From Candidatus Sysuimicrobiota bacterium CSP1-3 (GTDB lineage Bacteria; Sysuimicrobiota; Sysuimicrobiia; Sysuimicrobiales; Humicultoraceae), in NCBI GenBank assembly GCA_001443485.1, contig LDXQ01000020.1, forward strand, positions 1-37,669: 37,669 nt of DNA. The letters run 5' to 3'. Positions 12,828 through 29,454 of this stretch are shown piece by piece. Position 1 is the first letter of the stretch. Every line of letters starts with the position of its first letter. Made by a program: the position numbers and the translations under genes. The notes beneath the pieces were generated by a model. That model worked only from the letters and a program-made list of their open reading frames with translations, was not told the DNA's origin and ran no database searches.

Positions 12828-12905
12828 GACCGCCTAGCCCGCTCCTGGTCCGGGCATACACGAAGTGAGCCCGTAAGACAGGTTGGTGAGACTGGTCGGT
12901 GCTCG

Positions 12906-13580
12906 GTGAGTAGCCCGGCGGCTGCGCCGCCTCATCCTCCGCAGAAGCCCGGCCCCGGCCGATCGCTGGAGGGCCTTCCGGGGATCATCGCGTTCATCGT
13001 CGTGGCCGCGGTGCTCGTGGTCGGTCCGAAGATCTGGACGGTGGGAGAGGCCCTGGCGAGCCTGGGCCGGTCGATCACCAGGAGCAGGCCGGTTGAGGTC
13101 GCGGCGCCCGAACCGTCGGCGACCAAAGAGCAGGTGGTGGCGGTCTCGCAGGCTCAGCCGGTCGAGAAACCCGCGGTCGAGAAGGCCCCGGTGCCGGCGC
13201 AACCCAAAGCCTCTCGCCAACCCCGCAGCCGTCCTGCCGCGGCACCGACGGCCCGCCCATCGGTCCCGGCGAGCGTGCCGCCCGCCACGGCTATCACCGA
13301 CGCCGCTCGGCTCCAGCACTTCTACGCGCTGATGGATCAGGGCATCCGGCTCTACCGCGCGGGATGGTTCGGCCCGTCGGTGGGGCGGTTCCGCCAGGCC
13401 ACCGCGGTGACGCCGACCTCGCCCTACGCCTTCCTCTGGCTGGGGCGGGCCAACTTTGCGGCCCACCGCCCCGACGACGCGCGCGAGGCGCTGCAGCGCG
13501 TCATCGTCCTCGCGCCCGACAGCCAGGCCGCCCGCGAGGCTTCCGCACTCCTCAAACAACTTGCCGCCGGCAGCATCTAA
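12906..13580 (+). CDS. TPR-containing single-TM protein
   Basis: One TM segment (GIIAFIVVAAVLVVGP), Pro/Ala/Lys-rich linker, C-terminal TPR-like repeats (ALMDQGIRLYRAGWFGPSVGRFRQATAVTP...YAFLWLGRANFAAHRPDDAREALQRVI); GTG start. Confidence 0.6.
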   Translation: MSSPAAAPPHPPQKPGPGRSLEGLPGIIAFIVVAAVLVVGPKIWTVGEALASLGRSITRSRPVEVAAPEPSATKEQVVAVSQAQPVEKPAVEKAPVPAQPKASRQPRSRPAAAPTARPSVPASVPPATAITDAARLQHFYALMDQGIRLYRAGWFGPSVGRFRQATAVTPTSPYAFLWLGRANFAAHRPDDAREALQRVIVLAPDSQAAREASALLKQLAAGSI

Positions 13581-13654
13581 CGCGCTAAGATTCTGTCGAT
13601 GCGCAGGCGCGTCGTTCTTTCTGTCCGCGCCGTAGCCGCCTCCCGCTGCCGTTC

Positions 13655-13660
13655 TATAAT
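13655..13660 (+). promoter_or_regulatory. -10 element (TATAAT) immediately upstream of the MFS gene
   Basis: Perfect TATAAT ending 6 nt before the GTG start at 13667; no strong -35 seen. Confidence 0.5.
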
Positions 13661-13666
13661 GGTCGG

Positions 13667-14842
13667 GTGAACCGGCCGCTACTGGTCATCTTCCTCACGA
13701 TCCTCGTCAACCTCATCGGCTTCGGCATGATCATTCCGCTCCTGCCGTTCTACAGTAAGGCGCTGGGCGCGTCACCCTTTGTCATCGGCCTGCTCTTCGC
13801 GTCCTTTTCGCTCGCCCAGTTGATCGCCGGCCCGATCCTGGGCGACCTCTCCGACCGCTGGGGCCGCCGCCCCGTGCTGCTCTTCAGCCTGCTGGGCACA
13901 GCGGTCAGTTTCGCCCTGCTGGCGGTGGCCCGCAGCGTCACGGTGCTCTTCATCGCCCGCATCATCGACGGGCTCTCCGGCGGGAACATCTCCACGGCGC
14001 GCGCCTACATCGGGGACGTGACGCGGGAGGAGGACCGCGCGCGGGGCTTCGGCCTGATCGGCGCGGCCTTCGGCCTGGGCTTCATCCTGGGCCCCGGACT
14101 GGCCGCGGGCCTCTCGCACATCAGTTACTCCGCTCCGGCCTGGACCGCGGCGGCCCTGGCACTGGGCTCGGCTGCGCTGGCCTGGCGCTGGCTGCCGGAG
14201 ACGGTGCACCGGGTGCAGGCGGGACGGGGGTTACCCTGGCGCTCGCTCCCGGCGCTGTTGCGCCACCCGCGGCTGGGGACGATCCTGCTCATCGACCTGG
14301 CATTTTGGGCGGCGCAGGCGGTCTACCAGACGACGTTCGCCCTCTTCGGCGCCCGCCGGTTCGGGTTTGATGTACCGCAGACCGGCGTGCTGTTGGCGGC
14401 GGTGAGCGTCCTCGGGGTGGTGATTCAGGTGGGCCTCGTCGGACCCGCGGTCCGGCGCCTCGGGGAGTGGCGTACGCTGGCCTTGGGACTCTTTCTGGCC
14501 GCCGCCGGACTGGGGCTCGCCTCCGCAACGCATAATCTCACGGTCTTTATCATCGGGATGGTGCCCTCGGGCGCCGGCATCGCCCTGGCGATCCCCTCAC
14601 TGACGAGTCTCCTCAGCCGCACGGCGGGCCCGCAGGAGCAAGGGCGCGTGCAGGGCGTGGCCAGTGCGCTGGAGAGTCTGGGGCGCACCGTCGGTCCGGT
14701 CTGGGGGAACAGTGCGCTGCAGGTAGCCGGCGAAGGAGTGGCGTTCGGCTCCGGCGCCGCGGTGATGGGCGTGCTCGCCGCGTTCGCCTGGGTCACCCAG
14801 CGGTCGGCGCGCGCCGTGGAGCAGATCCGGGTCTGGAGGTGA
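13667..14842 (+). CDS. MFS transporter (drug efflux/TetA-like)
   Basis: FGMIIPLLPFYSKALGASPFVIGLLFASFSLAQLIAGPILGDLSDRWGRRPVLL: MFS motif A GDLSDRWGRRP; about 12 hydrophobic segments. Confidence 0.9.
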   Translation: MNRPLLVIFLTILVNLIGFGMIIPLLPFYSKALGASPFVIGLLFASFSLAQLIAGPILGDLSDRWGRRPVLLFSLLGTAVSFALLAVARSVTVLFIARIIDGLSGGNISTARAYIGDVTREEDRARGFGLIGAAFGLGFILGPGLAAGLSHISYSAPAWTAAALALGSAALAWRWLPETVHRVQAGRGLPWRSLPALLRHPRLGTILLIDLAFWAAQAVYQTTFALFGARRFGFDVPQTGVLLAAVSVLGVVIQVGLVGPAVRRLGEWRTLALGLFLAAAGLGLASATHNLTVFIIGMVPSGAGIALAIPSLTSLLSRTAGPQEQGRVQGVASALESLGRTVGPVWGNSALQVAGEGVAFGSGAAVMGVLAAFAWVTQRSARAVEQIRVWR

Positions 14843-14846
14843 GCCG

Positions 14847-15767
14847 GTGCGCTTTCTAACCTATGCCAGCGAGCAGGGGCCGCGCCTGGGTGTGCTCGTT
14901 GGCGAACTCGTCTACGATGTGCCGGCGCTCTACCGGCGGCTCTTCCGCGCGCAGGGGAAGACCCCGGACGGCGCCATCCCCACCGATCTCCTCGCCTTCA
15001 TCGACCGGAGTTCGGTCGTGCTGGTGCGCCGCCTGCTGGCGCTGGCCCGCTCGCTGCCTGCCTCCAGCCGGCGCGCGGTGGCCCGCCCCCTGCGCGAGGT
15101 CAACCTGATGGCGCCGCTCCCTCGCCCGCGGAAGAATATCTACTGCATGGGGCGGAACTACGCGGAGCACGCCCGCGAGGGCGGGGTGGCGCCCCCGGAG
15201 CAGCCGGTGTGGTTCACCAAGCCGCCCACGGCGGTGATCGGTCCCTTCTCGCCGATCCTGTACCACGCCGCTACGCAGGCGCTGGACTACGAGGCGGAAC
15301 TGGTGGTGGTCATCGGCCGGCGCGGCCGGAACATCCCGCGGGAGCAGGCGCTGGAGTACGTCTTCGGCTACACGGTGATGAACGACGTCACGGCGCGCGA
15401 TCTGCAGCGGGAACGCGGGCAGTGGTTCAAAGGCAAGAGCCTGGACACGTTCGCGCCGCTCGGGCCCTGGGTGGTGCATCGCTCAGCGCTCCCCGACCCG
15501 CAGCGGCTGATGGTGCGCTCGCGCGTCAACGGGGAGCTGCGCCAGGAGGCTTCCACCGCCGACATGATCTTCCCGGTGGCGGCGCTAGTCGCGGATCTGT
15601 CGCGGGGCATGACGCTGGAACCCGGGGATCTCATCGCGACCGGCACACCGGCGGGTGTGGGCATGGGTTTTCAGCCACCACGCTGGCTGCAGGTCGGCGA
15701 CGTGGTGGAGGTCGAAGTGGAGGGCAACGGGACGCTTCGTAACCCCATCGTCGCCCCCGGCAGGTAG
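14847..15767 (+). CDS. Fumarylacetoacetate hydrolase family protein
   Basis: KNIYCMGRNYAEHARE ... DYEAELVVVIGRRGRNIPREQALEYVFGYTVMNDVTARDLQ ... KSLDTFAPLGPWVV ... GDLIATGTPAGVGMG. Confidence 0.93.
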   Translation: MRFLTYASEQGPRLGVLVGELVYDVPALYRRLFRAQGKTPDGAIPTDLLAFIDRSSVVLVRRLLALARSLPASSRRAVARPLREVNLMAPLPRPRKNIYCMGRNYAEHAREGGVAPPEQPVWFTKPPTAVIGPFSPILYHAATQALDYEAELVVVIGRRGRNIPREQALEYVFGYTVMNDVTARDLQRERGQWFKGKSLDTFAPLGPWVVHRSALPDPQRLMVRSRVNGELRQEASTADMIFPVAALVADLSRGMTLEPGDLIATGTPAGVGMGFQPPRWLQVGDVVEVEVEGNGTLRNPIVAPGR

Positions 15768-15809
15768 AGGGGAAAGCACCGGCCGGCCGCACAGGTGGAT
15801 GATTGGGCG

Positions 15810-16838
15810 CTACTTCCCCAGGAACCGGTTGGTCCAGAGAATCCCTTCCTTCGCCGAAGGTTTGGACCGAATCTCGCCGATCCCGAACAGGAAGTCGAGC
15901 GTCTTCTGCACGAGCGGTTCGCTCATCCGGCCGTCTTCGGAGAGGCCCGGGATGATCTCGGGCAGGACCCGGGCCAACAGCGCCGGATCGCGGGCGACGT
16001 ACTTGCGCAGGTGCGTGACTGCCGCCGCGGGATCCGTCCGCATCAATCGGTAGCCGCGGGCGACCGCCCGGACCCACCGACGCAGCACCTCGGGGTTCCG
16101 GTTTGCGTACACGTTGTGCACGGCGATCCCCGTGTACACAATGCCGTCGAGTTCCGGCACGTCCCCGGCGGAGGCCTTGACGATCACCACGCCGTAGCCG
16201 TCCTGCTCCGCGACGTAAGGGGTGGGAGCGGAGAGGTGGAAGGCATCGATCTGCCGCGTGCGTAGCGCGGCGAGCAACGGACCACCACCGCCGATGGATA
16301 CGAGCTGCACGTCCCGGTCGGGGTCCATCCCGGCCCGCTTCAGGTAGTAGCGCATGTAGACGTCCGTGGCCGCCCCCGGCCGGGTGATGCCCAGTTTGAG
16401 CCCCCGCAGCGCCGCCAGCCGCTGAGCGATCGGCGTGGTCCGGGAGAGGTTCTTCGCCCGGGCGACCTCCGGATGCATTACCAGGTCGAGAGTCACGCGT
16501 TTGGTCAGGTTGTAGATGAACAGGATCTGCTTGCCCTGCCGCCGCAGCTCCACAGCCTGGAACGGGTCGGCGTCGAAGATCTGCACCTGGCCGGAGACCA
16601 GCGCCGCGATCCCCAGAGCGCCGCTCTCGACCTCGAACAACTCCAGGTCGATCCCCTCCTCGGCCATATAGCCGGCGGCCTCCGCGATGAACACCGGGGC
16701 CATGAAGATCGTCCCCGTGTGCGCCTCTCTGATTTTGACCCGCTGTCCCTGCGCGCCGGCCGTAGCGGTGGTCAGCATGACCAGCGCGGCCACGAGGGCC
16801 AGGGCCAGCGGCGTGCGTCCTTTCATGACCATATCCAT
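15810..16838 (-). CDS. NitT/TauT (NMT1-like) ABC transporter substrate-binding protein
   Basis: Signal-like N-terminus, then VKIREAHTGTIFMAPVFIAEAAGYMAEEGIDLELFEVESG ... LRGLKLGITRPGAATDVYMRYYLKRAGMDP; ORF track extends to 16871, M at 16838 follows a GGAGGAGG-like RBS. Confidence 0.88.
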   Translation of the reverse strand: MDMVMKGRTPLALALVAALVMLTTATAGAQGQRVKIREAHTGTIFMAPVFIAEAAGYMAEEGIDLELFEVESGALGIAALVSGQVQIFDADPFQAVELRRQGKQILFIYNLTKRVTLDLVMHPEVARAKNLSRTTPIAQRLAALRGLKLGITRPGAATDVYMRYYLKRAGMDPDRDVQLVSIGGGGPLLAALRTRQIDAFHLSAPTPYVAEQDGYGVVIVKASAGDVPELDGIVYTGIAVHNVYANRNPEVLRRWVRAVARGYRLMRTDPAAAVTHLRKYVARDPALLARVLPEIIPGLSEDGRMSEPLVQKTLDFLFGIGEIRSKPSAKEGILWTNRFLGK

Positions 16839-16857
16839 CCCTCCTCCTCCGCGTTTC

Positions 16858-17736
16858 TTACACCACGTCACGCGTGATTCCCCGCCTGGGGCTCCAGCGC
16901 ATCAGGTAGTTCCCCAGGAACGTGATCCCTTGATTCATCAGCAAGACCACCGCGAGGAGGGAGAAGATGCCGGCGAACAATCCCGGCGTATCGAGCAGCC
17001 CCGCCTCGCGGCTGATCAGGTGGCCGACGCCGCGGTTGCTGGAGATGAACTCGCCGACGATCGCGCCGATCATCGCCTGGGGCACGGTGATCTGCAGGGC
17101 AGCGATGATGAACGGCGTCGCCGCCGGGAAGATGACCTTTCGCTGCAGATCCCACTCTGAGGCGCCCATTACCCGCGCTACCTGCAGCAGGGGGAGGGGC
17201 GCGGCGCGGATGCCGGCAATCGTGTTGATGAGGACGATGAAGAACACCATCACCGTCGCCACGGCGATCTTCGAGGTGATCCCCAGCCCGAACCAGAGGA
17301 TGAACAGGGGGGCCAGGGCGATGCGGGGGATGCCGTAGAAGGCGACGACGAACGGCTCGACGATGCGGAAGACGAGGTCGACCCGCGCCAGAGCAAACCC
17401 GAGCAGAAGCCCGGCGCTTGCGCCGATGATGTACCCGGCCAGGGCCTCGGTAATCGTGAACCGCAGATGATAGAGGAGGTTCTCCTCCACGAGCATCGTC
17501 CACAAGGCGCCCAAAATGGCGCTCGGCCGGCTGACGAAGAACTGGTCGACGAGGCGTCCCGAGGCAAGTTCCCAGGCGAGCAGGAAGCCGACCCCGACCG
17601 CGACCCGCCCCGCGACGATACCCCAGCGGGCCCGCCGCTCCCGCGCGCGCTCCTGCTCTTCCACGGCGCGGAGCAGTGTGTCGCCGCGGCCGCGCGGGAC
17701 GCCCATCGCCCCGGCGGCCGCTTCCTGTGCGGTCAT
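16858..17736 (-). CDS. NitT/TauT (SsuC/TauC-like) ABC transporter permease
   Basis: BPD permease EAA-type loop region GASEWDLQRKVIFPAATPFIIAALQITVPQAMIGAIVGEF; start chosen at MTAQEAAAG. Confidence 0.9.
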   Translation of the reverse strand: MTAQEAAAGAMGVPRGRGDTLLRAVEEQERARERRARWGIVAGRVAVGVGFLLAWELASGRLVDQFFVSRPSAILGALWTMLVEENLLYHLRFTITEALAGYIIGASAGLLLGFALARVDLVFRIVEPFVVAFYGIPRIALAPLFILWFGLGITSKIAVATVMVFFIVLINTIAGIRAAPLPLLQVARVMGASEWDLQRKVIFPAATPFIIAALQITVPQAMIGAIVGEFISSNRGVGHLISREAGLLDTPGLFAGIFSLLAVVLLMNQGITFLGNYLMRWSPRRGITRDVV

Positions 17737-18554
17737 CGCTCCCTCACCTCCAGCGCGACCTCGATGATTTCTTCCTTGAGATCGCGCCACACCTGATCGT
17801 AGAAGTCGCCGAACGCGGGATGCGCGTGAATGCGAAACACGTCCCGCGGACGCGAGATCGGCACCGTATAGCGGCGCTTGATCGTGCCGGGGGCGCGGCT
17901 GAACATGACAATCTCGTCCGCCAGGGCGATGGCCTCGACGAGGTCATGGGTGACGAAGAGGATGCTCTTGCCGCTACCTTCCCAGAGCTTGAGCAGTTCA
18001 TCCTGCAAGATGACCCGGGTCTGCGCGTCCAGCGGGCCGAAAGGTTCGTCCATCAGGACGACGTCGGGTTCATAGATGAGGGTGCGGATGAGGGCGGCGC
18101 GTTTGCGCATACCTCCCGAGAGCTCGTGCGGGAAGTGGTGTTCAAACCCGCCCAGGCCGACCATCGCGATGTACTTCCCGGCCTCCGCGCGGCGCCCGGT
18201 CGCCGGAACGCCGCGGAACTCCAGCGCCACCTCGACGTTTTCCTGCAGGGTGCGCCAGGGGAAGAGATTGTCATCCTGCGTGATGTACCCCGCGTCCGTG
18301 TTCACGCCTTCGACGGGAGCGCCCTTGTAGCGGACGATGCCTTCCGTCGGCCGGACGAGGCCGGCGATCATGTTCAGAAAGGTTGACTTCCCGCATCCCG
18401 ACGGACCGACCAGGGCCACGAAGCGCCCGGCGTCCACCGCGAGGTTGACATCGTGCAGGGCGAGGAAGGCGCGCCGGTCGTGCCGGTTTCCCTGCGCCGT
18501 GAACACTTTGAAGACCTCGCGCGCTTCGATGATCGGTTGACTGGGGGACACGAC
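17733..18554 (-). CDS. NitT/TauT (SsuB/TauB-like) ABC transporter ATP-binding protein
   Basis: Walker A GPSGCGKST, signature LSGGMRKRAALIRTL, Walker B DVVLMDEPFGPLD, H-loop VTHDLVEAIALAD; GTG start near 18554 chosen over the longer ORF. Confidence 0.92.
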   Translation of the reverse strand, partial: VVSPSQPIIEAREVFKVFTAQGNRHDRRAFLALHDVNLAVDAGRFVALVGPSGCGKSTFLNMIAGLVRPTEGIVRYKGAPVEGVNTDAGYITQDDNLFPWRTLQENVEVALEFRGVPATGRRAEAGKYIAMVGLGGFEHHFPHELSGGMRKRAALIRTLIYEPDVVLMDEPFGPLDAQTRVILQDELLKLWEGSGKSILFVTHDLVEAIALADEIVMFSRAPGTIKRRYTVPISRPRDVFRIHAHPAFGDFYDQVWRDLKEEIIEVALEVRER

Positions 18555-18694
18555 ACCGCCCCGGTGTGCGCAGTGCTTGGGTTGGGCACTAGGTTCGCCG
18601 CGTGCGCAACTCCCCCTGCTCCCCAGGCCGTGTGCGCACCACATACGGCAATGGTAGTGTGGAGAGGAATGCGGCGGTAGGACGGGAGGGTGAG

Positions 18695-18775
18695 ATGGCA
18701 TACCAACTCCTGATGGAACGGGAGCCCCTGGTCAAACTCTGGGAAGAGGCCTGGGCGGAGGGGGTCGCCGCTTGA
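18695..18775 (+). CDS. Small ORF (26 aa: MAYQLLMEREPLVKLWEEAWAEGVAA) overlapping the murE start
   Basis: ATG 18695 preceded by GGGAGGG; TGA at 18773-18775 overlaps the TTG start of murE at 18772; GC-rich third codon positions. Confidence 0.45.
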   Translation: MAYQLLMEREPLVKLWEEAWAEGVAA

Positions 18776-20286
18776 CCGCCGTACCCCTGCGGACACTCCT
18801 GGCCGCGCTGCCCGAACACACCCTCGCGGGCGACCCGGAGCGGTCGATCACGGGCATCGCCTATCACTCCGGGCAGGTGCAGCCGGGGTTCCTGTTCGCG
18901 GCGATTCGTGGTTACACGCACGACGGGCACACGTTCACGCCGGACGCGGCGGCGCGGGGCGCGGCGGCGGTCCTGGTGCAGCGCCCGGTACCAGTCGCGC
19001 GGGAGGTCACCCAGGTCATCGTCCCCGACACGCGGACCGCGATGGCCCTGGCGGCGGCCGCCTTCTACAGCCATCCCTCGCGGGCGATCACGGTGATCGG
19101 CGTGACCGGCACCAACGGTAAGGGCGTCACCACCTACTTCACTGACGCGATTCTGACGCAGGCCGGGCACCGCAGCGCCGTCATCGGGACGATGGGGGCG
19201 CGCGGCCCGTCGGGAGTGATCGAAACTAGCCGCACGACACCGGAGGCGCCCGACCTGCAGCAGGTCCTCGCCGACCTGCGCGACCAGGGCGTGACGCACG
19301 TGGCCATGGAGGTGGCGTCGCACGCCCTCGCCCTGCACCGGGTGGACGGCACCCGCTTCCGCGTGGCCGTCTTCACGAACCTGACGCCGGACCACCTGGA
19401 CTTCCACGGGACCCTGGAGGCGTATCTGGGGGCGAAGCGGCGTCTGTTCGAAATGGTCGAGCCGTCCGGGTGGAGCGTCGTCAACGCCGACGATCCCGCG
19501 GCCGTGGAGATGGCACGGGCCAGCCGGGCCCCGGTGCTCCGCTTTTCGCCGGGCGCCGACAGCCGCTCGGGCACCGGGCACGTGGACCTCTGGGCGGAGG
19601 ACATGCAATTGAGCCTGGACGGCACCACCTTCCGCGCCGTGACGCCGCAGGGGTCCCACCCGGTGCGGCTGCACATCGGCGGCGCCTTCAACGTGGCCAA
19701 TGCGCTCGCCGCGCTGGCCACCGGGATGGCGCTGCACATTCCGCTGGAGGTTGGGACGGCGGCGCTGGAGACGGTGCGCGGCGTGCCCGGCCGCTTCGAG
19801 CCCGTACGCGAAGGGCAGGAGTTCGCCGTGATCGTGGACTACGCGCACACACCCGACGGCCTGGAGAACGTCCTCCGCACCGCGCGGCAGATCACCCGCA
19901 AACGCGTCATCGTGGTGTTTGGCTGCGGCGGTGATCGGGACCGCACGAAGCGTCCGGTGATGGGACGCCTCGCGGTGCAGCTGGCCGACCTGGCGATTGT
20001 GACCTCCGACAACCCGCGCGGCGAAGAACCGCGGGCCATCATCGAAGAGATCCTTCAAGGGATACGGGCCACGGCCAAGGTCCGACGCGGGCGGTTTGAG
20101 GTGGAGCCCGACCGCCGAGCCGCGATTCACCGCGCCATCACTGCTGCGGCCTCGGGCGATATCGTCGTCATTGCCGGTAAGGGACACGAACCCTACCAGG
20201 AGATCCAGGGCATGCGCCACCCCTTCGACGACCGTGTCGTCGCACGGGAGACGCTGCGGGCCCGCCTGGGGAGCGCCGCGCAGTGA
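18772..20286 (+). CDS. murE: UDP-MurNAc-tripeptide synthetase MurE
   Basis: GTNGKGVTTYF, TTPEAPDLQQVL, MEVASHAL, FTNLTPDHLDFHGTLEAYLGAKRRLF, DYAHTPDGLENVL, DNPRGEEP (meso-DAP-type motif). Confidence 0.95.
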   Translation: MTAVPLRTLLAALPEHTLAGDPERSITGIAYHSGQVQPGFLFAAIRGYTHDGHTFTPDAAARGAAAVLVQRPVPVAREVTQVIVPDTRTAMALAAAAFYSHPSRAITVIGVTGTNGKGVTTYFTDAILTQAGHRSAVIGTMGARGPSGVIETSRTTPEAPDLQQVLADLRDQGVTHVAMEVASHALALHRVDGTRFRVAVFTNLTPDHLDFHGTLEAYLGAKRRLFEMVEPSGWSVVNADDPAAVEMARASRAPVLRFSPGADSRSGTGHVDLWAEDMQLSLDGTTFRAVTPQGSHPVRLHIGGAFNVANALAALATGMALHIPLEVGTAALETVRGVPGRFEPVREGQEFAVIVDYAHTPDGLENVLRTARQITRKRVIVVFGCGGDRDRTKRPVMGRLAVQLADLAIVTSDNPRGEEPRAIIEEILQGIRATAKVRRGRFEVEPDRRAAIHRAITAAASGDIVVIAGKGHEPYQEIQGMRHPFDDRVVARETLRARLGSAAQ

Positions 20287-21695
20287 CCGGCCGGGGCATC
20301 CTCTCCCTGGCCGACGTCGCGCAGTCCACGGGCGCGCGGGTGCATCCCCCGCTGGATGAAGGCGTTCTCGCCTCACTGTGGGTGCGCGCCGTCTCCACCG
20401 ACACCCGCACGATGCAGCCGGGCGACCTGTTTGTCGCGCTGCGCGGGCCTAGTGCGGACGGGCACCGCTTCATTCCGGACGCGGTGACGCGGCAGGCCGT
20501 GGGCGTGGTGGCCTCGACCCTACCGGAGAGACCGCTCGATCCCCGCGTGCCCATCCTGCTCGTCGGCGATACCCTCCGCGCCCTCGGCGCGATCGCCGCG
20601 CGCTACAGGGAGCACCTCCCGGCGGAGGTCGTGGGGATCACCGGGAGTGTCGGCAAGACCACGGTGGCGGCGCTGACGGCGGCGGTGCTGGAGCGGCGCT
20701 TCCGGGTCGCGCGCTCGGAAGAATCCTGGAACGCGGAGATCGGCGTCCCGCTAACGCTGCTGCGCGCCGCCCCCGAGACGCAGGTCATCGTGACCGAGAT
20801 GGCGATGCGCGGGCTGGGACAGATCCGCGAACTCGTGGAGATCGCCCGGCCGCGCCTCGGCGTGGTGACCAACATCGGCGAGGCCCACATGGGTCTGCTC
20901 GGGTCGGTGGAGCGCATCGCCGAGGCCAAGGGTGAACTGGTGGCGGGTCTGCCGCCCGACGGCGTGGCCATCCTGAATGCCGACGATCCGTGGAGCGGGC
21001 GACTGGCATCCCTGGCGCGCTGCCGGGTGCTCCGCTTCGGGTTTTCCGCGGATGCCGATGTGCGCGCGGATCGGGCCACGGCTGCCGGCAGGAGTGCAAC
21101 GTTCCACCTCGTGCTGGGGACGGAGGCCGCTGAGATCCACCTACCCCTGGCCGGCCGGCACAACGTGGCCAACGCGCTGGCCGCCGCGGCCGTGGGGATG
21201 GCCCTGGGGGTGCCGCTCGACGCGGTACGTGCCGGCCTGGAGCAGGCCGTGCCTCCGTCGAGGCGGTTGCAGGTGGAGGAGGCCGGCGACCTCCTCATCC
21301 TCAACGATACCTACAACGCCAGCCCCCGCTCGGTACGCGCGGCGCTGGATGTTCTGGATGCGGTCGCCGGTGGTCGCCGGCGCGTAGTGGTGCTGGGGGA
21401 CATGAAGGAACTCGGCGCGGAGTCGGTCCGGCTGCACCGCGAGATCGGCCGGGAGGCCGCACAGCGGGGAGTGGCCGTAGTTGTGGCCCTCGGTCCGGAG
21501 GCCGCAGCGCTGGCGGAAGGCGCGCGTGAGATCGTGGCGGCCGACCGCGTCGTCCACGTGCCAGACCGGGAGGCCGCGATCGCGATCTTGCCGTCGGTAA
21601 TCCACCCGGAGGACGTCATTCTGGTCAAGGGGTCGCGCGCCATGGGACTGGAGGCCGTGGTGGAGGCGCTGCGTGCCTATCCGGTGAGGAAGTAG
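20283..21695 (+). CDS. murF: UDP-MurNAc-tripeptide--D-Ala-D-Ala ligase MurF
   Basis: STDTRTMQPGDLFVALRG ... GITGSVGKTTVAAL ... VTNIGEAHMGLLGSVERIAEAKGEL ... NDTYNASPRSVRAALD ... LGDMKELG. Confidence 0.96.
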   Translation: MTGRGILSLADVAQSTGARVHPPLDEGVLASLWVRAVSTDTRTMQPGDLFVALRGPSADGHRFIPDAVTRQAVGVVASTLPERPLDPRVPILLVGDTLRALGAIAARYREHLPAEVVGITGSVGKTTVAALTAAVLERRFRVARSEESWNAEIGVPLTLLRAAPETQVIVTEMAMRGLGQIRELVEIARPRLGVVTNIGEAHMGLLGSVERIAEAKGELVAGLPPDGVAILNADDPWSGRLASLARCRVLRFGFSADADVRADRATAAGRSATFHLVLGTEAAEIHLPLAGRHNVANALAAAAVGMALGVPLDAVRAGLEQAVPPSRRLQVEEAGDLLILNDTYNASPRSVRAALDVLDAVAGGRRRVVVLGDMKELGAESVRLHREIGREAAQRGVAVVVALGPEAAALAEGAREIVAADRVVHVPDREAAIAILPSVIHPEDVILVKGSRAMGLEAVVEALRAYPVRK

Positions 21696-21696
21696 C

Positions 21697-22650
21697 ATGG
21701 AGCGCGCGGCGCTGGCGGCGACGCTGGCCTTTCTCCTCGTGCTCCTGTCCGGACGCACCGTGATCGCGCAGCTGGCCGCGTGGAACATCCGCCAGGCCAT
21801 CCGCGAGGAGGCGCCCGAGCGGCACCGTGGGAAGGCCGGCACGCCGACAGTCGGCGGGCTGCTGCTGCTGGTCGCGGCGATCGTGGGCACAGTCGTGGCG
21901 GCGAGGCCGAGTCTCCAGGTGGCCATCGTGCTGCTGATGATGGCGGGGTTCGGCGCGATTGGCCTCGTGGACGACCTGCTGAAGGTGCGCCGCGGGCGGA
22001 ACCTGGGCCTGCGCGCCCGGGAGCGCCTGGCCGCACAGACGCTGCTGGCCGCGGTCATCGTCCTGTACGTAACCTCCGCCGTGCCCCAAGGATCAACGCT
22101 GGCGCTGCCGTGGCTGGGCAGGGTGAATCTCGGCTGGGTCTATGTCCCGTTCGGGATCGCCTTCGTCCTGGGATTCGTTAACGCAGTGAACCTGGCCGAC
22201 GGCCTGGACGGACTGGCCGCCGGCCTGAGTGCCATCACCGCCGGAGCTTACGCGGCGATCGCCTTTCGCGTGGGGTGGCCGGACCTGGGCCTGCTCGGGG
22301 CGGGCCTGACCGGTGCGTGCGTGGGGTTCCTCTGGTTCAATGCCCACCCGGCCGAGGTCTTCATGGGCGACACGGGGAGCAATGCACTGGGCGCGGGGCT
22401 GGCGGGGCTGGCCCTCCTGACGAAGACGGAACTTACCCTGGTCGTGGTCGGTGCGGTGTTCGTCGCGGAAGCGGTCTCGGTGCTGGGGCAGGTGGCGTAT
22501 TTCAAGGCGACCGGCGGCCGGCGGATCTTCCGGATGAGCCCGCTGCACCATCACTTCGAACTCGGCGGGTGGACGGAGACGCAGACGGTCACACGCTTCT
22601 GGCTGCTCGCCGCCCTCGCCGCCCTGATTGGCTTGCTGATCGTGTTCTGA
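21697..22650 (+). CDS. mraY: Phospho-N-acetylmuramoyl-pentapeptide transferase MraY
   Basis: KAGTPTVGGLLLL ... GLVDDLLKV ... NAVNLADGLDGLAAG ... HPAEVFMGDTGSNALGAGLAGLALL ... MSPLHHHFELGGWTETQTVTRFW. Confidence 0.96.
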   Translation: MERAALAATLAFLLVLLSGRTVIAQLAAWNIRQAIREEAPERHRGKAGTPTVGGLLLLVAAIVGTVVAARPSLQVAIVLLMMAGFGAIGLVDDLLKVRRGRNLGLRARERLAAQTLLAAVIVLYVTSAVPQGSTLALPWLGRVNLGWVYVPFGIAFVLGFVNAVNLADGLDGLAAGLSAITAGAYAAIAFRVGWPDLGLLGAGLTGACVGFLWFNAHPAEVFMGDTGSNALGAGLAGLALLTKTELTLVVVGAVFVAEAVSVLGQVAYFKATGGRRIFRMSPLHHHFELGGWTETQTVTRFWLLAALAALIGLLIVF

Positions 22651-22708: not shown

Positions 22709-23317
22709 GTGGACGCCCTTGAGTTGTTCCTCCGAGAGCATGCGATCGCCCACTCCGCCCAGGTGGCCGCGGGAGAGCAGCGGTCCAGCGAAGATTTCAT
22801 CCTCCGCCACCTCGATGAGGCACAGATGCGGGCCCGGCCCCACGGCTTGAACTCTCTGGGGTGGCTCGTGTGGCACATGGCGCGATCCGAGGACGTCGGG
22901 ATCAACGTCGTCATCGCTGGGCAGCGCCAGGTGTTTGACGAGGGAGACTGGGCGGCGCGGTTGAACGTCACGCGGCGTGATGTGGGGACGGGGATGTCGG
23001 CCGACGAGGTGGCGGAACTCAGCGAACAGATCCGCATTCCTGAACTGCGGCTTTACCGGGCGGCGGTGGGACGGCGGACGCGGGAAGTCGTGGCCGCCCT
23101 CCCGCCGGCGGCGTGGGGCGAGATCGTCGAGGCCGCGGAGACCGCGCGGGCTCGGTCGCAGGGCGCCTACGGTCCGGGGGCCGAGTGGCTGGAGCGGTTC
23201 TGTACGGGCAAGTCGAAGGCCTGGTACTTCTACTGGATTGCCGTGGGCCACAATCACCTGCACCTGGGGCAGGCTCGCTGGGTGCGGAAGCTGCTGTTGG
23301 GCAAGGGCCAGGTATGA
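22709..23317 (+). CDS. DinB-like (DinB/YfiT superfamily) protein
   Basis: NSLGWLVWHMARSEDVGINVVIAG ... YWIAVGHNHLHLGQARWVRKLL: His arrangement typical of DinB-like four-helix metal-binding proteins. Confidence 0.75.
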   Translation: MDALELFLREHAIAHSAQVAAGEQRSSEDFILRHLDEAQMRARPHGLNSLGWLVWHMARSEDVGINVVIAGQRQVFDEGDWAARLNVTRRDVGTGMSADEVAELSEQIRIPELRLYRAAVGRRTREVVAALPPAAWGEIVEAAETARARSQGAYGPGAEWLERFCTGKSKAWYFYWIAVGHNHLHLGQARWVRKLLLGKGQV

Positions 23318-24780
23318 CCCTGCCGGGACTGCGCGGTCGATCCGTGCACGTCATTGGCCCTTCGGGGACAGAGGGCTCGGCAGTGATCGATTTCCTATTG
23401 GGCCGGGGGGTGACGACGATCACCGCGCACGACCTGGCGGCCAACCCTGAGCAGTTTACCAAGACCTTCCACCGCACTCACCAATGGCTGGAGCCGGAGG
23501 CGCGGGAGGGCGCGCTGGCCCGTCTGCTGGACTCGCCGGTAGTCATTCGCTACCGCGACCACTATCTGACGGGCATCGAGCGGGCCGACCTGATCGTCGT
23601 GCCCCAGTCCTGGTTCCGCCATCCAGAGAACGCCCCGCTGCGGGCGCTGCGGGAGCGGGGGGTGCCGTTCACCTCGATGACCCGGCTCTTCCTCGAGACC
23701 TGCCCCTGTCCGATCATCGGCGTCACCGGGACTAACGGGAAGTTCACCGTCGCCACGCTCATCTACGAGATGCTGCGCACGGCGGGCCGCACCGCCTTCT
23801 TCTCCGGCAACGACCGCACCCACGTCCCGATGCTCTACTACCTGGACCGCATCACCCCGGAGGCCTGGTTGGTGTTGGAGATCAGCAACCGCCAGCTGGT
23901 CGATCTCGACCGCAGCCCGCACATCGGCGTCGTCACCAACGTCGCACCGCACCACCTGGACGACCACGGGACGATGGAGGCGTACGCCCAGGTGAAGGCC
24001 ACGCTGATCCGCCACCAGCGGCCCGGGGACCACGCCGTCCTGAATCGCGATAATCCTTACACGGAGGCCATGGCGAGACAGGTCCGTGGGCAGGTGTGGT
24101 GGTTTAGCGCGGAGCGTGGGGTGGAGCGCGGGGCGTATCTCGACGCGGACACGCTGCGGCTGGCCGGTCCGGGCACCCCGGCGATCCTGCCGGCCGGTGA
24201 CCTGCGGCTGCCGGGGCAGGCCATGATCGAGAACGCGCTCGCCGCCTGCGCCGCCGCGGCGATCGCCGGCGTCCCGCCCGACGTCATGGCCAGCGTGCTG
24301 CGCAGCTTCACGGGGCTGCCGTACCGCTTCCGCCTGGTGGCTGAACGCGGGGGCATCGGGTTCTACGAGGACTCGCTGGCCACCAATCCCACCGCCGCCG
24401 CCGCGGCCATCCGCAGCCTCGACCGGCCCTTCCTTCTTATAGCCGGCGGCTTCCGCCGCGGCGCCACCCCGGAGGACTTCCGGCCGATGACCGCCGCGCT
24501 CGCTGCCACGGGACGCTGCCGGACCGTCCTGCTGATCGGCGCGACCGCCCCGGTCCTCTCCGAGGCGCTGGCGACGATTCCTCCGGCGGCACGCCCGACC
24601 GTGATCCTGGCCGGGACGCTGGAGGGGGCGATGGCGGAGGTGCACCGGCTGGCGCGGCCGGCGGAGGCGGTGCTGCTCTCACCCGGTTGCGAATCGTTCG
24701 ATCAGTTCGTCGATTACCGCCAGCGCGGTGACCGCTTCCGCGCGCTGGCAGAGGAGTTCGCGGCGGCCGAGGCCAAGTAA
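23314..24780 (+). CDS. murD: Divergent MurD-like UDP-MurNAc-L-alanine--glutamate ligase
   Basis: GVTGTNGKFTVATLIYEML, LEISNRQL, VTNVAPHHLDDHGTMEAYAQVK, YEDSLATNPTAAAAAI, LLIAGGFRRG, LLSPGCESFDQFVDYRQRGDRFRAL; canonical murD position between mraY and ftsW. Confidence 0.8.
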   Translation: MTLPGLRGRSVHVIGPSGTEGSAVIDFLLGRGVTTITAHDLAANPEQFTKTFHRTHQWLEPEAREGALARLLDSPVVIRYRDHYLTGIERADLIVVPQSWFRHPENAPLRALRERGVPFTSMTRLFLETCPCPIIGVTGTNGKFTVATLIYEMLRTAGRTAFFSGNDRTHVPMLYYLDRITPEAWLVLEISNRQLVDLDRSPHIGVVTNVAPHHLDDHGTMEAYAQVKATLIRHQRPGDHAVLNRDNPYTEAMARQVRGQVWWFSAERGVERGAYLDADTLRLAGPGTPAILPAGDLRLPGQAMIENALAACAAAAIAGVPPDVMASVLRSFTGLPYRFRLVAERGGIGFYEDSLATNPTAAAAAIRSLDRPFLLIAGGFRRGATPEDFRPMTAALAATGRCRTVLLIGATAPVLSEALATIPPAARPTVILAGTLEGAMAEVHRLARPAEAVLLSPGCESFDQFVDYRQRGDRFRALAEEFAAAEAK

Positions 24781-24806: not shown

Positions 24807-25955
24807 ATGGACGCCGTACCTCGCCGCTCCCCAGACGTCTACCTCTTCGCCGCCACCGTGGCCTTGATCGGCATCGGGATTGTGATGATCTACAGCGCCA
24901 GCGCCATCGTCGCGCTGGACTGGTTTGGCGACAGCGCCTTCTTCCTCAAGCGACAATTGCTCTGGAGCGTGCTGGGCCTGGGGGTCATGTCCGTGTCGTT
25001 GACCATCCACTACCAGCGGCTGCGGCGGATCACTCCGGCACTGCTCCTCCTGGTGGCGGTGGCGCTGGTCGCTGTCCTCATCCCGGGAATCGGCCGGCTG
25101 GTCGGCGGGGCGCGCCGCTGGCTGGTGCTGGGTCCGGCGAGTTTCCAGCCGGCGGAAGCGGCGAAACTCCTTCTGGTCCTCTACCTGGCCAACTATCTGA
25201 CCAACCGCGGCGCGGCGGTCCGTCAGTTCCGCACGCTGCGGCCGCCGCTGCTCGTCACGGCCGCGCTGTTCCTCCTCGTCGTGGTCCAGCCCGATATGGG
25301 GTCGGCCTTCCTGCTCGTCGGGATCACCGGGATGATGTTGTTCCTGGGCGGGGCCAGCATCTGGCACCTTGCCGGTGTGATGCTGGCCGGGATCCCGGCG
25401 CTGGCCGCGGTGACCATCCTCGAACCCTACCGCGTCCGCCGCCTCATGGCCTTCCTGGACCCCTGGCGTGATCCGCAGGGCAGCGGCTTTCACATCATCC
25501 AGTCGCTGCTGGCGCTGGGGTCGGGTGGGCTTTTGGGCGTGGGGCTGGGAGCCAGCCGGCAGAAGTTCTTCTACCTGCCCGAGCGGCACACCGACTTCAT
25601 TTTTGCGATTCTGGGTGAGGAGCTGGGCCTGGTCGGCGCGGCGCTGGTCATCGCGCTCTTGGCCTTCGTGGCCTACCGCGGCTTTCGCATCGCCCGGTCC
25701 GCGCCGGACCGCTATGGGGCCCTGCTCGCCGCCGGCATTACCAGCAGTATCGTGGGGCAGGCGATGCTGAACATCGGCGTGACCGCCGGGATCCTGCCGA
25801 TTACCGGTGTGCCGCTGCCGTTCGTCAGCTTCGGCGGATCCTCGCTACTCATGACCTGTCTTGGGGTGGGCATCCTGCTGAACATCTCGCAGTACAGCGT
25901 CCGCCGCGCGCCGGCAGAGGTCCCGCTGTGGCAGCCGGCCAGGGAGATGGAGTGA
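24807..25955 (+). CDS. ftsW: SEDS-family glycosyltransferase FtsW
   Basis: IYSASAIVA ... GARRWLVLGPASFQPAEAAKLLLVLYLANYL ... QPDMGSAFLL ... YLPERHTDFIFAILGEELGLVGA ... TGVPLPFVSFGGSSLL. Confidence 0.96.
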   Translation: MDAVPRRSPDVYLFAATVALIGIGIVMIYSASAIVALDWFGDSAFFLKRQLLWSVLGLGVMSVSLTIHYQRLRRITPALLLLVAVALVAVLIPGIGRLVGGARRWLVLGPASFQPAEAAKLLLVLYLANYLTNRGAAVRQFRTLRPPLLVTAALFLLVVVQPDMGSAFLLVGITGMMLFLGGASIWHLAGVMLAGIPALAAVTILEPYRVRRLMAFLDPWRDPQGSGFHIIQSLLALGSGGLLGVGLGASRQKFFYLPERHTDFIFAILGEELGLVGAALVIALLAFVAYRGFRIARSAPDRYGALLAAGITSSIVGQAMLNIGVTAGILPITGVPLPFVSFGGSSLLMTCLGVGILLNISQYSVRRAPAEVPLWQPAREME

Positions 25956-25956
25956 C

Positions 25957-27156
25957 GTGACCGGCGCAGGATCGATGCGGCTCATGATCACAGGTGGGGG
26001 CACGGGAGGTCACCTCTACCCAGGGATCGCCGTGGCCGAGGTGGTCCAGGCGCGCGTGCCGGGGGCGGAGATCCTGTTCGTCGGCGGGACGCGGCTGGAA
26101 GCCCACGTGCTGCGGGAGGCGGGATGGTCCTTTGAGGCTGTTGCCGCGCATCCTCTGCCCCGCCGGATCGGTCTCTCCCTGGTTTCGTCGACGGCGGTGA
26201 ACTCCGCGGGGACGGTCCAATCCCTCGGCCTGCTCCGCCGGTGGCGGGCGGACGTCGTGCTGGCGACCGGCGGCTACGTAGCCGGTCCTGTGGGCCTGGC
26301 TTCGGTGATCCTGGGCATCCCGCTCGTCCTGCAGGAACAGAACATGCTCCCCGGCCTGGCGAACTTCTGGTTGGCCCGCTGGGCCCGGGCCATCTCCGTG
26401 CCCGCCCTGATGGCCGGATTCCCCGCCGACCGCGTCGTCGTCACCGGCGTCCCTGTGCGGCCGAGCGTCCTTCGCGGAGACCGGGAGCGCGCCCGCTTGG
26501 CGTTCGGCCTTGCCGACCGCTTTACGATCCTGGTGCTGGGCGGAAGCCAGGGCGCGCTGAGCCTCAACCGGGCGGTGGGCGAGGCGGCCACGTTGATGAT
26601 GTACGAGCCGATCCAGATTCTGCACCAGACCGGGCGTGAGCATCTGGAGTGGGTGCGGCGGGAGATCGGCCACCGCGAGCACGTGGGGCCGCCGGTGATC
26701 CGGCAGATCCCTCTGCCGTTCATCGAGCAGATGGGCGACGCCTATGCCGCGGCCGACCTGGTGATCTGCCGCGCCGGCGCCTCGACGCTGGCCGAGGTGA
26801 CGGCCTGGGGGCTGCCGGCGATCCTGGTGCCGTATCCGTACGCCGCGGGTAGACATCAGGATGCCAACGCAAGGCTTCTCGCCTCGGCGGGCGCGGTCGA
26901 GGTCATCCCCGACGCGGAACTGACGGGGCTCCGCCTGCAGGATCTCATCCGTGACCTCCTCCGCGACCGGCCGCGGCTGCGGGCGATGGCGGGGGCGAGC
27001 CGGGGTCTGGGCCGTCCCGACGCCGCCGAGCGCGTGCTGGACCTGTTGCTCCTGGCGGCGGGCCGGAAATCGATGGCGCCAGCCCCTGAGCCCCCCGGAG
27101 AGTCCGCCGGCGGTCAGCGCACCCACCGGTTCGGCGCGACCCACATTCCCGGATAA
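25957..27156 (+). CDS. murG: UDP-GlcNAc:lipid I GlcNAc transferase MurG
   Basis: MITGGGTGGHLYPGIAVAEVV ... ATGGYVAGPVGLA ... LQEQNMLPGLANFWLA ... VLGGSQGALSLN ... ICRAGASTLAEVTAWGLPAILVPYPYAAGRHQDANAR; GTG start. Confidence 0.96.
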   Translation: MTGAGSMRLMITGGGTGGHLYPGIAVAEVVQARVPGAEILFVGGTRLEAHVLREAGWSFEAVAAHPLPRRIGLSLVSSTAVNSAGTVQSLGLLRRWRADVVLATGGYVAGPVGLASVILGIPLVLQEQNMLPGLANFWLARWARAISVPALMAGFPADRVVVTGVPVRPSVLRGDRERARLAFGLADRFTILVLGGSQGALSLNRAVGEAATLMMYEPIQILHQTGREHLEWVRREIGHREHVGPPVIRQIPLPFIEQMGDAYAAADLVICRAGASTLAEVTAWGLPAILVPYPYAAGRHQDANARLLASAGAVEVIPDAELTGLRLQDLIRDLLRDRPRLRAMAGASRGLGRPDAAERVLDLLLLAAGRKSMAPAPEPPGESAGGQRTHRFGATHIPG

Positions 27157-27160
27157 CGGC

Positions 27161-28543
27161 ATGATTGACCCGCAGCAGCATGTCCACTTTGTCGGCATCG
27201 GCGGCGCCGGGATGAGCGCGCTGGCCGAGGTGCTGCTGGCGCGCGGGTTCGCCATCTCCGGGTGCGACATTCGCGAGTCCGAGGCGACCCGGCGGCTGGA
27301 GGCGAAGGGCGCCGTCATCCGCCTGGGGCACAGCGCCACCCACCTGCAGGGCGTCGACCTGGTGGTGGCCTCCCGGGCGGTGCGCGCGGAGAGCGCGGAA
27401 CTCCTGGCGGCGCGGTCGAAGGACCTCCGCGTCTGGCACCGGGCAGAACTGCTGGGCCAGCTCATGCGCGAGGCGCGTTCCATCGCGGTCGCGGGGACGC
27501 ACGGCAAGACCACGACGACGGCGATGGCGGCGGCGGTGCTGATCGAAGGCGGCCTCGACCCCACCGCGCTCGTCGGCGCGGACGTGCTGGAGCTTGGCGG
27601 CAACGCCCGCATCGGCGCCTCGCCGTGGATGGTCGCGGAGGTGGACGAGAGCGACGGCTCGCTGCTGCACGTCGCGCCCTGGGCGGCGGCCGTGACGAGC
27701 CTGGACCTCACCGACCACGCCGACTTCTACGCTTCGCCCGAGCAGTTGGAGCACACGTTCCGGCAGTTCCTGGAAGGGGTGAAGCCGGACGGGTTCGCCG
27801 TCCTCTGTGCCGATCACCCCATCGTGGCGCGCATGGTCTCGGTGCTGCGGGTCCCCGCGATCACGTACGGCATTACCGGCGGCGCGGACCTGGTGGCCGA
27901 GGTCCAGGAATTGAGCGGCGCGCACAGCCGGGCCCTGGTGCGGCGCAAGGGGAAACGCCTCGGCCGCTTCACCCTGCAGGTCCCCGGGCGGTACAACATC
28001 GCCAACGCGCTGGCGGCCACGGCCATCGGCCTGCAGGTCGGGATCCCCTTCGAAGCGATCGCGCGCGGCCTGGCGAAGTTCCGCGGAGTGCGCCGCCGCT
28101 TCGAGATCCGCGGCGACGTGGACGACATCCTCGTCGTGGACGACTACGCGCACAACCCGGTGAAGGTTGCGGCGGTGCTGCGGGCGGCGCGGGAGTGCTG
28201 GCCGGGCCGGCGCGTCGTGGCTATCTTCCAGCCGCACCGCTACACCCGCACCCGCACCACCCACGCGCACTTCGCCGATGCGTTCCGCGACGCGGATGAG
28301 GTGTACATCACCGAGATCTACCCGGCGGACGAAGAGCCCATCCCCGGCGTCAGCGCCGCCTTGATCGTGGAGGCGGTGCGCCGCCGCCGGCCGGTGCGCT
28401 TCGTGCCCTCCGCGGAGGAGGCGGCCGAGCAGGCCGCAGGGGAGGCGCGCGCCGGCGACCTCATCCTGACCCTCGGTGCGGGTGACATCGGCGCGGCCGC
28501 GGACGCCATCGTCGAGCGACTGCGCGCCCGGGTGCGGCCGTGA
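27161..28543 (+). CDS. murC: UDP-MurNAc--L-alanine ligase MurC
   Basis: VHFVGIGGAGMSALAEVLLARGFAISGCDI ... VAGTHGKTTTTAM ... VVDDYAHNPVKVAAVL ... FQPHRYTRT. Confidence 0.96.
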   Translation: MIDPQQHVHFVGIGGAGMSALAEVLLARGFAISGCDIRESEATRRLEAKGAVIRLGHSATHLQGVDLVVASRAVRAESAELLAARSKDLRVWHRAELLGQLMREARSIAVAGTHGKTTTTAMAAAVLIEGGLDPTALVGADVLELGGNARIGASPWMVAEVDESDGSLLHVAPWAAAVTSLDLTDHADFYASPEQLEHTFRQFLEGVKPDGFAVLCADHPIVARMVSVLRVPAITYGITGGADLVAEVQELSGAHSRALVRRKGKRLGRFTLQVPGRYNIANALAATAIGLQVGIPFEAIARGLAKFRGVRRRFEIRGDVDDILVVDDYAHNPVKVAAVLRAARECWPGRRVVAIFQPHRYTRTRTTHAHFADAFRDADEVYITEIYPADEEPIPGVSAALIVEAVRRRRPVRFVPSAEEAAEQAAGEARAGDLILTLGAGDIGAAADAIVERLRARVRP

Positions 28544-29454
28544 CACCCCGTTCGGTGGCGTCCCTGGAGGAAGAACTGCGTCAGCGGGCGCGAGACGTCC
28601 GTGTAAATGAGCCGCTGTGGAAGCACGTGTCCATGCGCATCGGGGGGCCGGCCGATCTGCTGGCCATCCCGCGGAACCTGGCGGAACTGCGCGCCACGGC
28701 GGCCTTCCTCTTCGAACGGGGCATCCCCTTCGTGACGCTGGGCCAGGGCTCGAACATCCTGGTGGCCGACGCCGGCGTGCGCGGCGTCGTCATCAAGATC
28801 GGAAAAGGCATCGACCGGGTGCGGTTTGTTGCCGCCAAGGTGGTTGTGGAGGCCGGCCACGGGCTGCCGCACCTGGCGCAGGAGGCGACGAGGCGCGGTC
28901 TCTCTGGACTGGAGTTCGCGGCCGGAATTCCGGCGTCCGTCGGCGGTGCGGTCGTGATGAACGCCGGTGCGCACGGGCACAGCATGAGCGAGATCGTGGA
29001 CCGCGTGCGCGTGGTGACGCCGCAGGGAGAAGAGACGCTGTCCGCGGCCGACCTGGGATTCGCCTACCGGACGTCGCTGCTGCAGGCGCGGCCGGCGGTG
29101 CTGCTGGAGGTCGAACTCCACCTGCCCCCGGCGCCGGCAGAGGAGGTGCGCCAGCGCATGGAGGCCTGGCTGGCGCAGCGCAACGCCACGCAGCCGATCG
29201 GGCCACCGAGTTCGGGGTGTGTCTTCCGGAACCCGGAGGGCGATCATGCCGGCCGGTTAATCGAGACCGCGGGGGCGAAGGGGCTGGCCGTGGGCGATGC
29301 CGTCATCTCCGAGATCCACGCCAACTACATTGTCAACCGCGACCGCGCCACCGCGGCCCAGGTCCTCACGTTGATCGAACAGGTGCGGGAGCGCGTCCGG
29401 CGGGCTTCGGGCCGCGAGCTCGATCTCGAGATTAAATTGCTGGGGGAGTTCTAG
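28540..29454 (+). CDS. murB: UDP-N-acetylenolpyruvoylglucosamine reductase MurB
   Basis: HVSMRIGGPADLLAIP ... TLGQGSNILVADAGVRGVVI ... GLEFAAGIPASVGGAVVMNAGAHG ... PIGPPSSGCVFRNPEGDHAGRLIETAGAKGLAVGDAVISEIHANYIVN; GTG start overlapping the murC stop. Confidence 0.96.
   Translation: MTPRSVASLEEELRQRARDVRVNEPLWKHVSMRIGGPADLLAIPRNLAELRATAAFLFERGIPFVTLGQGSNILVADAGVRGVVIKIGKGIDRVRFVAAKVVVEAGHGLPHLAQEATRRGLSGLEFAAGIPASVGGAVVMNAGAHGHSMSEIVDRVRVVTPQGEETLSAADLGFAYRTSLLQARPAVLLEVELHLPPAPAEEVRQRMEAWLAQRNATQPIGPPSSGCVFRNPEGDHAGRLIETAGAKGLAVGDAVISEIHANYIVNRDRATAAQVLTLIEQVRERVRRASGRELDLEIKLLGEF

Follow-up and report, generated by a model that had tools for sequence, protein, structure and literature searches.

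A heavily altered MurD, with substitutions fixed throughout the phylum, in the dcw cluster of Candidatus Sysuimicrobiota

Introduction

In E. coli MurD, the single substitution K319T is sufficient for the enzyme to accept L-Glu, and in MurD and MurD2 the choice between L- and D-Glu is controlled by K319, the K348 region, A414, and D182 (PMC8788868). T321 and S415 of the same enzyme form hydrogen bonds with the carboxylates of glutamate-like ligands (PMC3527612). A distinct form of the ligase, MurD2, is encoded beside murL, and the MurD2 members of the MurL–MurD2 pairs have the hallmarks GTKGKST, PEHLD, NDSIST, and GGxxR in common.

Here, we describe the MurD of Candidatus Sysuimicrobiota bacterium CSP1-3; the phylum name Candidatus Sysuimicrobiota is equivalent to CSP1-3 (taxonomy entry; PMC11604079). 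The window, i.e. the whole stretch of 37,669 nucleotides that was analysed, comprises all of contig C20 of a 2.5-Mb genome that is 89% complete.

The murD gene and its cluster

The following genes of the window, all on the forward strand, form the context of murD.

18772–20286, + strand: murE, ordinary (TIGR01085, 537 bits)
20283–21695, + strand: murF, ordinary (family match)
21697–22650, + strand: mraY (family match)
22709–23317, + strand: DinB_2-family ORF between mraY and murD, with an ATGA overlap with the murD start
23314–24780, + strand: murD of a divergent Sysuimicrobiota type, 488 amino acids (TIGR01087, 276 bits; AlphaFold2 model matching MurD crystal structures)
24807–25955, + strand: ftsW (family match)
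25957–27156, + strand: murG (family match)
27179–28543, + strand: murC, ordinary, start approximate (TIGR01082, 479 bits)
28540–29454, + strand: murB (family match)

The protein encoded by the murD ORF exceeds the curated NCBIfam cut-off of the murD equivalog TIGR01087 (211.95 bits). Each of MurE, MurF, MurC, MurB, MraY, MurG, and FtsW passes at least one curated family cut-off, mostly by wide margins, and MurD is therefore the outlier of its own cluster. The position between mraY and ftsW that an earlier note on this DNA had assigned to the gene was confirmed, with the small DinB_2-family ORF intervening after mraY, and a neighbourhood comparison placed murD in the same canonical dcw slot in nine relatives. 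Within the genome, the TIGR01087 cut-off was passed by this protein alone, so that 23314–24780 represents the sole MurD and no canonical murD was found elsewhere. A weak Mur-ligase match on another contig (C10) was considered as a second MurD and rejected, because it is MurT, located beside GatD.

Two differences in gene content were observed around this cluster. The DinB_2-family ORF is absent from the sister genome G001. In addition, ftsI and murE, which adjoin each other in more distant relatives, are separated in the window by a gap of ∼6 kb (12834–18770) that contains TPR, MFS, and FAH-family genes and two ORFs without a family, of which G001 has only the MFS and FAH genes.

Predicted fold and phylogeny

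The AlphaFold2 model of the window MurD, built with 25 aligned sequences, has a mean pLDDT of 93.4 and a pTM of 0.91. Its 33 best matches in the PDB are all MurD, with whole-chain TM scores of up to 0.76 (normalized by the query) and 0.84 (by the target). From this whole-chain match, the N-terminal domain is a normal MurD domain that has diverged in sequence, with no replacement by another domain. In its three-domain fold, complete set of catalytic residues, dcw gene order, and single copy, the protein resembles the canonical MurDs of known structure from E. coli, S. agalactiae, and P. aeruginosa. Fold, catalytic machinery, and genomic setting thus all mark it as a MurD.

In a 43-row tree, the Sysuimicrobiota MurDs are monophyletic with 100/100 support, which bears out the suggestion that the protein belongs to an uncharacterized MurD clade. 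The placement of MurD2 relative to this clade is unstable and involves long branches: the two are apart in the 43-row tree and joined at 91/91 in a reduced 27-row tree.

Substitutions fixed in the phylum

We aligned 38 phylum rows with 23 canonical MurDs, that of E. coli among them, and nine MurD2s. The phylum rows represent only complete MurDs, and some genomes contribute two rows, listed under separate locus ids. Residue numbers such as P72, K319, K348, and A414 follow the literature numbering of E. coli MurD. The alignment located the following elements in the window.

23347–23376, + strand: glycine-rich loop HVIGPSGTEG of the N-domain, residues 12–21, counterpart of GLGxSG
23599–23637, + strand: VPQSWFRHPENAP, residues 96–108, replacing the SPGI stretch (E. 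coli P72 is Q in 38/38 rows)
23719–23748, + strand: P-loop GVTGTNGKFT (S116 to F/Y)
23875–23898, + strand: LEISNRQL (S160 to N, F161 to R; catalytic E157 and S159 kept)
23932–23967, + strand: VTNVAPHHLDDH (D182 to H, R186 to D; H183 kept)
23995–23997, + strand: Lys228, kept counterpart of carbamylated K198
24367–24387, + strand: EDSLATN (N316 to E, K319 to L; D317 and T321 kept)
24445–24462, + strand: GGFRRG (K348 not conserved; new invariant Arg381 one position earlier)
24679–24708, + strand: SPGCESFDQF (A414 to E; S415 kept)

The motifs GTNGKFT, LEISNRQL, PHHLD, and EDSLATN read in the ORF exactly as had been noted from the sequence, and they are fixed across the complete phylum MurDs examined; the changes are therefore not sequencing noise. 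Every examined relative from the order that has a complete gene carries GTNGK[FY]T, SNRQL, PHHLD or a similar sequence, [ED]DSL[AG]TN, GGxR, and SP[GA]CESFDQF. Some of these relatives bear public-record names such as ANGP1 or 'Armatimonadetes' MAGs or Bacterium HR32, which we take to denote Candidatus Sysuimicrobiota.

Conservation in canonical MurD reaches 80% or more in 62 columns; in seven of these, the clade has a different, fixed residue, namely P72Q, G140H, S160N, F161R, R186D, N316E, and K319L. Further differences from canonical MurD are F or Y at S116, A414E, D182H, and the loss of K348 with a new invariant Arg at 347; the K348 column contains P in 21, R in 13, K in 2, L in 1, and Q in 1 of the 38 rows. 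Within our sample, GK[FY]T, SNRQ, EDSLATN, GGxR, CES, and the Gln that occupies the position of the SPGI proline are specific to the clade. The NDSK motif, SPGI loop, and SSFQ motif are typical MurD features that lie outside the TIGR01087 score criterion, and the window MurD has EDSL, VPQS, and SNRQ instead. The window protein is thus a clearly real but heavily altered MurD, and its changes are phylum-wide.

Two of the features first singled out require a different reading. PHHLD, which had been listed as a sign of altered specificity, was rejected as such evidence: His at D182, found in 38/38 phylum rows, also occurs in 6 of the 23 canonical MurDs of the sample, including otherwise canonical ones of other phyla. 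As for the N-terminal domain, which was thought to lack both the GLGxSG and SPGI stretches, the SPGI stretch is indeed replaced, whereas a glycine-rich loop and the MurD fold are kept.

K115, N138, E157, S159, H183, K198, N271, R302, D317, and T321 are kept in all 38 rows, and S415 is kept in each of the 37 rows extending to this position, so that the catalytic residues of the window MurD are intact. The reported stereo-determining positions (K319, the K348 region, A414, and D182; PMC8788868) are altered throughout the clade.

Comparison with MurD2 and MurL

The alterations at the positions that set stereochemistry lend weight to a serious rival explanation, which we regard as possible but not probable, that the window MurD ligates L-Glu and that the product is then epimerized by an enzyme other than MurL. 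The clade and MurD2 are alike in having an aliphatic residue at K319 (Leu in 38/38 rows of the clade, Ile in MurD2), a replaced R186, and genomes without MurI, and the loss of F161 is common only to the clade and the MurD2s of the phylum of genome G122. This rival also draws on the 91/91 grouping in the smaller tree, and is weakened by the separation of the two in the larger one. Moreover, the overlap of switched sites (3 shared of 7 in the clade and 11 in MurD2 among the 62 columns) is not significant (p = 0.10).

At other positions, the two forms differ clearly. The P-loop is GTKGKST in MurD2 and GTNGK[FY]T in the clade; D182 is replaced by Glu (PEHLD) in MurD2 and by His in the clade; and MurD2 has Arg at K348, where the clade has no conserved residue and the invariant Arg lies one position earlier. 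None of the four hallmarks GTKGKST, PEHLD, NDSIST, and GGxxR is present in the window enzyme. The positions controlling the L/D choice are largely rewritten in the clade, although along other lines than in MurD2.

The gene context differs as well, because MurD2 is encoded beside murL, whereas the Sysuimicrobiota murD lies in the dcw cluster and MurL was found neither in the genome nor in the phylum. We searched for MurL with a probe sequence 83% identical to the annotated MurL of Xanthomonas sacchari (the source of an annotated murL–murD pair), and with a profile. These recovered a MurL homologue beside MurD2 from G122, and the same profile detected MurL in 11 of the 13 genomes of its phylum; among the 43 Sysuimicrobiota genomes, probe and profile yielded none (0/43), the best scraps (E = 0.006) falling at the P-loop. 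Nor did the neighbourhoods of murD in nine relatives contain a conserved epimerase candidate. Membership in MurD2 was rejected on the missing hallmarks and MurL, and the proposal of L-Glu ligation in the specific MurD2/MurL form is not supported. Of the combination that the earlier note had named as supporting evidence, namely no other MurD, no MurI, and a MurL homologue, the first two parts hold and the third fails.

MurL homologues were also observed on three Pseudonocardia plasmids; the one region inspected (L167, NZ_CP052772.1) has no annotated MurD neighbour.

Supply of D-Glu and the probable substrate

MurI is absent: no match to TIGR00067 above the cut-off was obtained in any of the 43 phylum genomes. 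A D-amino-acid transaminase (Dat) with the RxHxFP motif was seen, among the matches inspected, only in G001 and G029; one class IV transaminase of G007 lacks this motif. The two class IV matches of the CSP1-3 genome are branched-chain aminotransferases, and the one scoring ∼200 bits was rejected as a Dat candidate on its match to PRK08320 (462 bits).

An Asp/Glu-type racemase (TIGR00035) is present in 33 of the 43 genomes; those inspected retain both of its catalytic Cys and the conserved order ileS-racemase-dksA-lspA-lgt. This protein could be the Glu racemase of most members, in which case the changes in MurD would be irrelevant to stereochemistry; we consider this explanation rather unlikely. 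NCBIfam names the protein cysteate racemase (CuyB), and it is cleanly missing from several near-complete genomes. In G007, G008, G009, and G014, the ileS-dksA-lspA junction is intact and lacks it, and the MurDs of these four fall within the Sysuimicrobiota clade. In the CSP1-3 genome, its absence may represent an assembly gap, because lspA is missing there too. Where its location was noted (L045, L047, L048, and L049), the racemase gene lies ∼30 kb from the dcw cluster, and it has been lost in several members.

DapF was found in 28 of 28 good genomes and is the sole DapF of each genome in the sequences read. The DapF of Chlamydia is a bifunctional DAP epimerase/Glu racemase that needs both catalytic Cys, and thus provides a precedent for a lineage without MurI. 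However, both Cys are replaced by Ser (SGNGLR, ASGSS) in the phylum sequences read (L146–L165; in CSP1-3, contig C37, 8096–8908), which weakens DapF as a Glu racemase candidate; the score against the bifunctional model is 81 bits, compared with a cut-off of 350. The Ser form with SGNGLR is not specific to the phylum, since about a dozen genomes outside it carry the same form. No known family of Glu racemases or epimerases is common to all of the phylum genomes.

MurT is encoded in 41 of the 43 genomes and adjoins GatD in that of CSP1-3. MurT–GatD amidates the D-Glu of the stem peptide, and the near-universal presence of MurT indicates that position 2 of the stem is very probably glutamate. This presence, the ordinary MurE, and the retention of T321 and S415, which contact glutamate-like carboxylates (PMC3527612), make it highly improbable that the window MurD ligates another amino acid, such as D-Asp, even though the remodelled pocket and the Asp-type racemase of most members would suit such a substrate.

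We consider it most likely, with a probability of roughly 0.55, that the window MurD is functional, that its glutamate/UMA pocket has been remodelled, and that it still ligates D-Glu from a source outside the recognized families. It would couple glutamate to UDP-MurNAc-L-Ala in the usual way, with ATP and an acyl-phosphate intermediate. The remodelling of the pocket would be a single event in the phylum's ancestor that comprised the substitutions S116F, F161R, R186D, K319L, and A414E, the loss of K348 with gain of an Arg at the preceding position, and the exchange of SPGI for a new loop; these changes may compensate for one another. D-Glu, the most likely substrate, would be provided by a racemase or transaminase that is not recognizable by known families, and MurE presumably receives the D-Glu product, because the neighbouring MurC, MurE, MurF, MurB, and MurG are ordinary. 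D-Glu is favoured over L-Glu on account of prior frequency, the ordinary MurE, and the kept T321 and S415. The explanation by the ileS-linked racemase is compatible with ligation of D-Glu in most members, and our confidences in the two are therefore not exclusive.

Against D-Glu, none of the possible sources (MurI, Dat, the Asp/Glu-type racemase, and DapF) covers all members, a gap that also counts in favour of L-Glu; furthermore, K319T suffices for acceptance of L-Glu by E. coli MurD (PMC8788868), and the clade has Leu at this position. Either reading requires, at least in part of the phylum, one enzyme that is yet to be discovered, and the sequence by itself would not decide between them. 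Where a remodelled MurD coincides with the lack of a recognizable source of D-Glu, as in several near-complete genomes, a new racemase or transaminase, or a new epimerase, is implied; this makes the source of mirror-image glutamate in this uncultured phylum a testable question. The natural K319L/A414E/shifted-Arg variant would also help to show which residues set the stereospecificity of MurD.

A link between the loss of K319 and the absence of MurI is suggestive at most, as four other outgroup genomes without MurI (G047, G048, G050, and G054) keep the Lys. The only outgroup MurD of canonical type without K319 is that of G046 (L021), in which the motif reads NNSMCTNP with Met at this position; this genome encodes neither MurI nor MurL and possibly represents another K319-less lineage.
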